Assembly (NCBI RefSeq): GCF_000311785.1
Contig: NZ_HE978538.1
Span: forward strand, 233,981 to 297,980
Origin: Brevibacillus massiliensis
GTDB taxonomy: Bacteria; Bacillota; Bacilli; Brevibacillales; Brevibacillaceae
Direction: 5' to 3'
Length of the DNA: 64,000 nt
Shown here: piece after piece, positions 41,911 through 43,798 of the stretch
How positions within the stretch are numbered: the stretch's first letter is position 1
Layout: each line of letters begins with the position of its first letter
Made by a program: the position numbers and the translations under genes
Notes under the pieces: model-generated
What the model was told of the DNA's origin: nothing
Seen by the model: the letters and a program-made list of their open reading frames with translations, nothing else
The model's database searches: none

Positions 41911-42573
41911 ATGAAGCGGTTTTACCTTGTTTTGTATGTGCTGTGCGTCATGCTGATGAACTGGGAAGGACAGCTGAACGCGGCATCCGTCGTCGATAAC
42001 GGACCGATCCCGCAGGAGTCGATTCGTCTGCGCATCATCGCCAACAGCGATTCGTTTCAGGATCAATGGCTGAAGCGCGAAGTTCGGGACGCGGTCGTCG
42101 CACAAATGAACGAATGGGTAAAAGATATCCGCTCATTTGAAGAAGCTCGTTCCCAAGTGGCATCAAGGCTGCCCGAACTGCAGCGCTTGGTGGATCAAAC
42201 GATACAGGACAGAGGTTTTGCGTATCAGGCGGAGGTTGACTTTGGCCAGGTGCCATTTCCTACCAAGCTGTATGGCTCTTACGTTTATCCGGCAGGGAAT
42301 TACGAAGCGCTGCGCATACGCATTGGTAAAGCCGAGGGACAAAACTGGTGGTGCGTACTCTTTCCGCCGCTCTGTTTTATCGATATGTCCAGCGGAGATG
42401 CCGTGCAGCCCAAACAACAAGCTGACCGGCAGAAGCGGGATGAGCCGCAGAAGCAAGATCATACGCAACAACTCCATGACCAAGCCGGCCAAAGCGGCAA
42501 AATGCTTGCTGATGCCGCCCCGGAAGTAGAGGTGCGCTTCTTTCTCTGGGATTGGCTGACAGGTTTATTTTGA
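41911..42573 (+). CDS. spoIIR: Stage II sporulation protein R
   Basis: 220 residues. The secreted forespore signal that triggers SpoIIGA to process pro-sigma-E in the mother cell. Signal peptide at residues about 1-25. The conserved core is ESIRLRIIANSDSFQDQWLKREVRDAVV, TKLYGSYVYPAGNYEALRIRIG and NWWCVLFPPLCFID, typical of SpoIIR. The linker before the last residues is Lys/Gln/Asp-rich, and the C-terminus is short and aromatic. GAGGGGAG SD. A sigma-F promoter is expected upstream, but I could not pick one with confidence. Terminator downstream. Confidence 0.94.
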   Translation: MKRFYLVLYVLCVMLMNWEGQLNAASVVDNGPIPQESIRLRIIANSDSFQDQWLKREVRDAVVAQMNEWVKDIRSFEEARSQVASRLPELQRLVDQTIQDRGFAYQAEVDFGQVPFPTKLYGSYVYPAGNYEALRIRIGKAEGQNWWCVLFPPLCFIDMSSGDAVQPKQQADRQKRDEPQKQDHTQQLHDQAGQSGKMLADAAPEVEVRFFLWDWLTGLF

Positions 42574-42591
42574 TAAACACGCTCCCCCTTT

Positions 42592-42615
42592 CCCACCTTT
42601 CGAGGTGGGTTTTTT
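42592..42615 (+). terminator. Terminator after spoIIR
   Basis: CCCACCT (42592-42598), TTCG tetraloop, AGGTGGG (42603-42609), six T. Confidence 0.85.
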
Positions 42616-42617
42616 AG

Positions 42618-42637
42618 TTATCCACAAGTTACCCACA
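42618..42637 (+). promoter_or_regulatory. Tandem DnaA boxes upstream of ywlC
   Basis: TTATCCACA (42618-42626) is a perfect DnaA box. TTACCCACA (42629-42637) differs at one position, in the same orientation and 11 bp (one helical turn) away. They end 5 bp before the -35 of the ywlC promoter. Confidence 0.8.
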
Positions 42638-42642
42638 GGTTG

Positions 42643-42671
42643 TTGAAAACTTGGCGGATAGATTTTATACT
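42643..42671 (+). promoter_or_regulatory. Sigma-A promoter of ywlC
   Basis: TTGAAA (42643-42648), 17-nt spacer, TATACT (42666-42671), directly downstream of the DnaA boxes. Confidence 0.75.
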
Positions 42672-42718
42672 AGGGAAGCAAATCCGTGTAAATGAAGGTT
42701 CGGAAAGGAAACAAAGAT

Positions 42719-43798
42719 ATGCAGAAAAAAATCGAGACGAAAGTCTGGCATGTGGATAAAAATGTGGAAGAAAAAATAAATTATTCACAGATTGTGGATG
42801 CAGCCCGTGTAATCCGGGATGGGGAACTGCTCGCTTTTCCTACGGAAACAGTCTACGGATTGGGCGCCAATGCATTGTCGGATGAGGCTGTGGAAAAAAT
42901 ATATACGGCCAAAGGCCGGCCGAGCGACAATCCGCTGATCGTCCATATTGGGTCGCTGTCGCAGCTGTCCGCTGTCGCGTCCTTTGTTCCGCCTAAAGCA
43001 CTCAAACTGATTGAAGCATTTTGGCCGGGTCCGCTGACTCTGTTTTTACCCAAGACAGAAGCAGTGGCCGGACGGGTGACGGCAGGACTTGATACCGTAG
43101 GTGTGCGCATGCCGGATCATCCCCTGGCGCTGGCGCTGATCCAGGAGGCAGGGGTGCCGATTGCCGCGCCCAGTGCCAATCGCTCGGGCAGGCCCAGTCC
43201 CACCAGCGCGGCTCACGTGCTTGCCGATTTGGACGGCCGAATTGCCGGTGTTTTGGACGGCGGCCCTACCGGGGTGGGAGTAGAATCGACCACGATTGAC
43301 ATGACAGCCGAACCTCCTGTCATTCACCGTCCCGGCGGCATTACGTATGAACAGATCAAGGCGGTGATCGGCGAGGTGCTGGTGGATGCCGCTGTAACCG
43401 ACAGCAAGCAAGCACAGCCGCTGTCCCCGGGAATGAAGTACACCCATTACGCTCCTGAGGGGCAGATGTGGATCGTCTCCGGCGAGGCTGCCGCCGCCAG
43501 GCAGCAAATGCTGCATATGCTGGCAGAGGCCAAGCGGGAGGGCAAGAAGACAGGAGTACTGGCTGTGGAGGAAAAAGCAGAGTGGTGGAGGCGGCAGGAA
43601 TCTGCCGATGTGGTGATCTCCTGCGGCTCGTCCAGCGAGCTGGAAAGCGTCGCCAGGGAGCTTTACTCCTGTCTCCGCCAATTTGACGATCATCAGGTAG
43701 AATTTATCGTTTCCGAAGCGTTCCCGACCAGCGGTATCGGACTTGCGGTTATGAACCGCCTGGAAAAAGCTGCAGGTGGCCGAATTATCCGCGTGTAA
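42719..43798 (+). CDS. ywlC: Threonylcarbamoyl-AMP synthase (TsaC/Sua5)
   Basis: 359 residues. Makes threonylcarbamoyl-AMP from Thr, bicarbonate and ATP for the t6A modification of ANN-reading tRNAs. The YrdC domain (about 30-215) has FPTETVYGLGANA, KGRPSDNPLIVHI, FWPGPLTL, VGVRMPDH, APSANRSGRPSPT and STTIDM. A C-terminal Sua5 domain (about 240-355) follows a linker with SPGMKYTHYAP. ATG 42719 has GGAAAGGA 7-9 nt upstream; an ATG at 42692 has no SD. The promoter carries DnaA boxes. Confidence 0.93.
   Translation: MQKKIETKVWHVDKNVEEKINYSQIVDAARVIRDGELLAFPTETVYGLGANALSDEAVEKIYTAKGRPSDNPLIVHIGSLSQLSAVASFVPPKALKLIEAFWPGPLTLFLPKTEAVAGRVTAGLDTVGVRMPDHPLALALIQEAGVPIAAPSANRSGRPSPTSAAHVLADLDGRIAGVLDGGPTGVGVESTTIDMTAEPPVIHRPGGITYEQIKAVIGEVLVDAAVTDSKQAQPLSPGMKYTHYAPEGQMWIVSGEAAAARQQMLHMLAEAKREGKKTGVLAVEEKAEWWRRQESADVVISCGSSSELESVARELYSCLRQFDDHQVEFIVSEAFPTSGIGLAVMNRLEKAAGGRIIRV

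Follow-up and report, generated by a model that had tools for sequence, protein, structure and literature searches.

A conserved cluster of DnaA boxes over the promoter and early coding sequence of ywlC in Brevibacillus massiliensis, a probable DnaA operator kept across much of the class Bacilli

The stretch of DNA analysed here, further referred to as the window, comprises 64,000 nucleotides of the Brevibacillus massiliensis chromosome and contains the gene ywlC (tsaC/sua5) with spoIIR as its upstream neighbor. The ywlC product is L-threonylcarbamoyladenylate synthase (TsaC/Sua5) by its match to TIGR00057 (214 bits at a cut-off of 123), and the start of the gene is best placed at 42719, since this ATG column is common to 27/27 genomes of the family. 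Two DnaA boxes lie in tandem between the spoIIR terminator and the ywlC promoter, 11 bp from start to start, the first of them 2 bp past the end of the terminator and the second ending 5 bp before the −35 element (Table 1). The core promoter is thus abutted by boxes, and its −35 element is itself contained in a weak third box, inverted and carrying two mismatches, which begins 12 bp downstream of where box 2 begins. The original prediction, made from the letters of the window, spoke of two DnaA boxes one helical turn apart, 5 bp ahead of a TTGAAA-N17-TATACT promoter; both are present at the predicted spacing, while the extent of the site was understated, as three further boxes are situated inside ywlC. 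Promoter scan of 42300-43000 returned TTGAAA-N17-TATACT as the only sigma-70-like site, and one such match is at chance level (0.7 expected in shuffles), yet it is invariant in 27/27 genomes of the family.

Table 1. Features of the ywlC locus in window coordinates, and places of the assembly with clustered consensus DnaA boxes in coordinates of contig C4
Feature	Position	Strand	Remarks
spoIIR terminator, stem CCCACC-TTTCG-AGGTGGG and T run	42592-42615	+	terminator scan; stem 42592-42609, hairpin folding energy −11.6 kcal/mol
DnaA box 1, TTATCCACA (consensus)	42618-42626	+	TTATNCACA in 27/27 genomes of the window's family
DnaA box 2, TTACCCACA (one mismatch)	42629-42637	+	non-consensus form kept in 26/27 family genomes
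Weak third DnaA-like box, TGTTGAAAA (two mismatches)	42641-42649	-	contains −35; invariant in 27/27 family genomes
−35 element TTGAAA, ywlC promoter	42643-42648	+	
−10 element TATACT, ywlC promoter	42666-42671	+	17 bp after −35
ywlC/tsaC/sua5 coding sequence	42719-43798	+	TIGR00057; ATG column common to 27/27 family genomes
DnaA box 3, TTATCCACA (consensus), codons 11-14	42751-42759	-	consensus box at the same position in 70/215 loci
DnaA box 4, TTATTCACA, ywlC coding sequence	42781-42789	+	consensus box at the same position in 59/215 loci
DnaA box 5, TTTTCCACA (one mismatch), ywlC coding sequence	42889-42897	-	recurrent position +50
oriC, beside dnaA	contig C4 14481-14804		at least three consensus boxes within 400 bp
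mscS-like/pepF-like gap	contig C4 31432-31654 (L132:5433-5655)		four consensus DnaA boxes; 17 kb from oriC
ywlC	contig C4 276598-276769		at least three consensus boxes within 400 bp

Three consensus and two one-mismatch boxes are gathered here in 280 bp, several boxes in about 300 bp, and the segment 42601-42900, holding 3 consensus boxes and 5 boxes at one mismatch or fewer, ranks first for boxes among all 300-bp stretches of the 64 kb. The whole assembly of 5.06 Mb has 78 matches to TTATNCACA, vs 67 for the reversed control. Contig C4 carries the only three places of the assembly where at least three of these consensus sites gather within 400 bp (Table 1). The ywlC gene is 262 kb from dnaA on that contig, and with the organism's own oriC identified the cluster lies outside the origin. 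The relative G010 likewise has three clusters, one at oriC, another some 23 kb from dnaA, and the third at ywlC. The cluster in the mscS-like/pepF-like gap is one more non-oriC site of B. massiliensis, matched in G010 by a cluster at similar distance from oriC.

Conservation was followed at two depths, the nearer being the family of the window, represented by 27 genomes of 7 genera, namely its own and 26 relatives. The original prediction was to fall if relatives lacked the boxes; instead, the block TTATNCACA-NN-TTACCCACA-N3-TGTTGAAAACTT-N13-TATACT is kept in 27/27 genomes (box 2 in its exact form in 26/27), while the intergenic sequence around it fails to align across the same set. In 27/27 the −10 element begins 37 bp downstream of where box 2 begins, and within the gene position −88 relative to the PTETVYG codons is occupied by a box with one mismatch at most, again in 27/27. 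In 26/27 genomes box 2 has kept its non-consensus form and not drifted towards the consensus, as might be expected under selection for a weaker site.

For the class Bacilli, ywlC loci were picked by protein match only, blind to boxes, and positions were counted from the PTETVYG codons as anchor. The anchored set of 215 loci is made of 139 profile-sampled loci from 41 families, taken by best profile score, with families of weaker ywlC matches under-represented, and 76 loci found by a Bacillus query. The latter set numbers 80 loci in all (76 anchored and 4 not), mostly Bacillaceae since the query is from Bacillus; its source is a genome of family f15 matching Bacillus species at 91-96%, and therefore the window's family, f1, differs from that of Bacillus. 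Three rows (L028, L042, and L047) were left out as duplicates. The anchor motif was at first lacking in four profile-sampled (L020, L056, L076, and L123) and four Bacillus-query loci (L173, L180, L189, and L222). Read without it, the latter four have 7 to 12 boxes each, L123 (f10) has one consensus and three one-mismatch boxes, and L056 and L076 (f17) have no boxes; L020 was left unanchored.

In the segment from −350 to +120 around the PTETVYG codons, the 139 profile-sampled loci contain 334 consensus boxes in 65,330 bp, compared with 67 in 276,930 bp of sequence beside it, while the reversed pattern occurs 5 and 13 times, respectively. At least three boxes are present at ywlC in 108/139 of these loci, belonging to 27/41 families, and at least five in all 76 anchored Bacillus-query loci, the cluster being carried by all 80. 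For the anchored set as a whole, three boxes or more are reached at 184/215 ywlC loci vs 30/1,232 control windows of the same loci, and five or more at 179/215 vs 0/1,232 windows of the same size elsewhere in those loci. The consensus boxes recur at fixed codon positions, namely −88 (minus strand, 70 of the 215 loci), −58 (plus strand, 59), and −76 (minus strand, 33). The cluster stays with ywlC whether the upstream gene is spoIIR or ywlB, and on the ywlC protein tree (n = 124, with 94 sequences from cluster loci) its presence needs at least 10 changes vs 27 for shuffled labels. No cluster was found in any sampled locus of 14/41 families, some of them with ywlC still 105-142 kb from oriC; since such families exist, the cluster is dispensable.

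Alignment of ywlC loci across relatives, proposed as a check together with the prediction, thus gives the cluster in 108/139 and 80/80 loci of Bacilli. The accompanying argument, that finding the arrangement outside Bacillus would speak for selection, is borne out by its presence in another family and by conservation far above shuffles and controls. It is not, as had been imagined, an isolated parallel in one other genus, being inherited across Bacilli. Judging by the layout kept across much of the class, the connection of ywlC with DnaA established in Bacillus subtilis seems to be ancient and maintained by selection. Titles and opening parts of abstracts that were searched, a weak test, held no report of class-wide conservation of the ywlC cluster, and conservation at the level of Bacillus may already have been reported. 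What appears to be new here is how deep the conservation goes, the presence of boxes in the coding sequence, and the promoter geometry held in common, DnaA binding and repression being already known in B. subtilis.

The geometry of the promoter is shared in a variable form. In most other families with the cluster, the last upstream boxes make an inverted pair with a 12-bp pitch; 140 such pairs were counted in 139/215 loci, the window's family (27 loci) being included through its weak box, and many other families have a complete inverted box in the 12-bp slot of this weak one. A −10-like hexamer follows the start of the second, i.e., last upstream, box at exactly 35 bp in 45/65 Bacillus-query loci with a pair and in 10/47 loci with a pair from other families, about one or fewer being expected at any one offset. 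Box starts precede the −10 element by 48 bp (box 1) and 37 bp (box 2) here and by 47 and 35 bp in the Bacillus pair; this similarity allows the abutting arrangement to be regarded as the family's form of a shared layout.

Several trivial origins of these boxes have to be weighed. Matches to the DnaA box with one mismatch or fewer are common, about 9 being expected in 64 kb, and could fall by chance beside an ordinary promoter; the likelihood of this is next to nil, as the box counts of 42601-42900 were reached in 0/2,000 dinucleotide shuffles (means 0.01 for consensus boxes and 0.36 at one mismatch or fewer) and the boxes are strictly conserved in 27 genomes. The coding boxes in turn might be a by-product of conserved N-terminal amino acids such as V-D-K, and the protein does contribute: with the protein kept and codons redrawn from the gene's own usage (100 shuffles per group), 3.0 to 17.7 boxes are expected per group. 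The observed numbers, never reached in 100 shuffles of any group, are 30 vs 3.0 in the window's family, 25 vs 4.2 in family f3, 66 vs 9.3 in the other profile-sampled loci, and 96 vs 17.7 in the Bacillus-query loci, a 5- to 10-fold excess that, the loci being related, is not a probability. With this excess in all four groups the protein-code origin of the boxes was rejected as very improbable, and selection is, by this codon comparison, acting on ywlC DNA beyond its protein code. The next stretch of ywlC has fewer boxes, still in excess over shuffles (e.g., 21 vs 1.7 in the Bacillus-query loci); therefore some boxes lie further into the gene.

The inverted pair of most other families might also serve mainly to terminate transcription of the upstream gene, its stem reading as DnaA boxes by chance. 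The flanks of the 140 pairs are indeed complementary by 64-66% at the first three positions vs 33-35% when re-paired, with compensating variants, and the pair is followed by a T-rich tail in Bacillaceae loci of the Bacillus-query set (5.6 T of 10). Nevertheless, tandem boxes and coding boxes are not hairpins, and the ywlC site is bound by DnaA in B. subtilis, which leaves this reading quite improbable as a general account. Possible in Bacillaceae, it does not apply to the window's family, where folding of the pair is no stronger than in shuffled sequence (−3.1 vs −3.3) and a separate terminator of spoIIR precedes box 1. The inverted pair of many Bacillaceae loci, L155, L165, and L033 among them, is situated inside a longer palindrome with compensating arms and a T-rich stretch after it, and by its sequence the ywlC operator of Bacillaceae may double as terminator of the upstream gene.

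The closest known counterpart is the ywlC cluster of B. subtilis, one of six outside oriC, which is like the present one in gene, promoter region, and possession of several boxes. The original prediction named this locus as a non-oriC site with DnaA-box cluster and DnaA-dependent expression, in agreement with published reports: ywlC is repressed by DnaA, and its upstream region is among the ten strongest in vitro DnaA sites, with 9 boxes and apparent Kd of 0.25 uM for ATP-DnaA (PMC4447404), while expression of a PywlC-lacZ fusion extending from −240 to +73 falls at about twofold more DnaA (PMC12112137). In coordinates of the sister species, the latter fragment would include the upstream boxes together with those at −69 and −58 in the coding sequence. 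The layout comparison rests on these sister species of B. subtilis 168, namely B. mojavensis (L150) and B. tequilensis (L155), in which the promoter abuts the last upstream box, as here. The differences are that the upstream boxes are tandem in the window, the second of them being non-consensus and the weak third box containing the −35 element, whereas Bacillus has an inverted pair with −35 just after it, and that the upstream gene is spoIIR here and ywlB in B. subtilis. Other B. subtilis clusters (tsaD/gcp-ydiF, trmE, yqeG-sda, yydA, and ywcI-vpr) are likewise multi-box DnaA-bound sites outside oriC. The oriC of the same genome uses the same box sequence and also contains an inverted pair with 12-bp pitch (L131:6599/6611), whereas the ywlC cluster is devoid of dnaA/dnaN context and has fewer boxes. 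As chromosomal box clusters affecting initiation, datA and DARS of Escherichia coli bear some likeness to it; datA is described as working with IHF and ATP-DnaA hydrolysis (PMC5295017), and B. subtilis as having neither IHF nor datA (PMC13220808).

Taken from sequence comparison, the probable nature of this non-origin cluster is that of a DnaA operator over the promoter and early part of ywlC, sharing its ancestor with the B. subtilis cluster. The predicted operator spans the ywlC promoter and the first approximately 180 bp of the gene. DnaA would bind the tandem upstream boxes cooperatively and then spread over the weak third box containing −35; sitting on upstream and coding boxes, it would keep RNA polymerase off the ywlC promoter, with ywlC repressed when free DnaA is plentiful, and the molecules bound at ywlC would no longer be free for oriC, which is 262 kb distant. 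DnaA binding and ywlC repression in this organism, details of the latter included, are what we infer by analogy with B. subtilis; the likeliest course is repression of ywlC by DnaA lying over the −35 region, with the cluster also keeping DnaA near oriC. A possible, if doubtful, alternative is that the site is mainly a reservoir, the amount of DnaA bound near oriC being selected and the effect on ywlC incidental. It is consistent with the location of ywlC within about 0.6 Mb of dnaA in all examined single-contig genomes with the cluster (some genome lengths being rounded), with the early initiation reported upon removal of all six non-oriC clusters of B. subtilis (PMC5295017, PMC13220808), and with genome G225, which lacks the ywlC cluster and has other clusters, one of them upstream of rlmH. 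At the same time, the geometry of boxes relative to promoter and codons is fixed over many families, beyond the needs of a reservoir, and most cluster-free genomes also have ywlC near oriC, so that position and cluster do not go together; distance to oriC, when tried as a predictor, failed to separate genomes with and without the cluster. Since 14/41 families are free of the cluster, some with ywlC near oriC, control of ywlC by DnaA is not essential, and the same holds for titration at this site.

Box clusters at other genes were counted, as two or more consensus boxes, in 30 comparison genomes chosen for carrying the ywlC cluster. Such boxes are present at ywlC in 28/30, a number not independent of the choice of genomes; 19 genomes have them downstream of tsaD, 18 upstream of trmE, and 10 upstream of yqeG (yqeG/sda), so that in this set other clusters of B. 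subtilis type are less widely kept than that of ywlC; genomes free of the ywlC cluster have them at tsaD in 10/30 and at trmE in 2/29. Altogether, tsaD (gcp), which like ywlC is a t6A gene, has a cluster immediately downstream in 29/60 genomes (L236-L265, L326-L355), and mnmE/trmE has one upstream in 20/59 (L266-L295, L356-L384), mostly genomes with the ywlC cluster; both kinds are spread over many families. Counted by genome, co-occurrence with the ywlC cluster is pronounced for trmE (18/30 vs 2/29, Fisher p 2e-5) and slighter for tsaD (19/30 vs 10/30, p 0.04). Linked loss of the ywlC and trmE clusters found no support after correction for relatedness (3 independent pairs, median p 1). Boxes are clustered between htrA and rlmH (L230:3239-3287) in one genome lacking the ywlC cluster; we take rlmH to be yydA of B. 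subtilis, another known DnaA site and RNA-modification gene.

That three widely kept clusters are found at tRNA-modification genes is striking and may be coincidence. The clusters at mnmE, at the t6A gene tsaC (ywlC), and beside the t6A gene tsaD may be read as a tie between replication and tRNA t6A modification effected by DnaA across Bacilli through ancient negative feedback on ywlC, which we regard as an unlikely, speculative extension of the operator. Excess initiator would repress ywlC, t6A would go down and (p)ppGpp up, and growth and replication would be slowed. Such feedback is conceivable because ywlC loss in B. subtilis induces the stringent response (PMC4634966). At tsaD the cluster lies downstream of the gene, which makes direct regulation there doubtful, and the finding of one study that proteins of the B. 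subtilis DnaA regulon are unchanged on arrest of replication initiation (PMC11019786) speaks against strong coupling of ywlC to replication.

With the probable operator recognized over this range of families, what was a curiosity of B. subtilis becomes a regulatory site of deep conservation, in which the geometry of the promoter is fixed and some of the boxes are concealed within codons. The importance of DnaA-controlled t6A synthesis for the cell cycle can now be tested directly, as can the question of whether ywlC regulation or DnaA storage is the thing selected.
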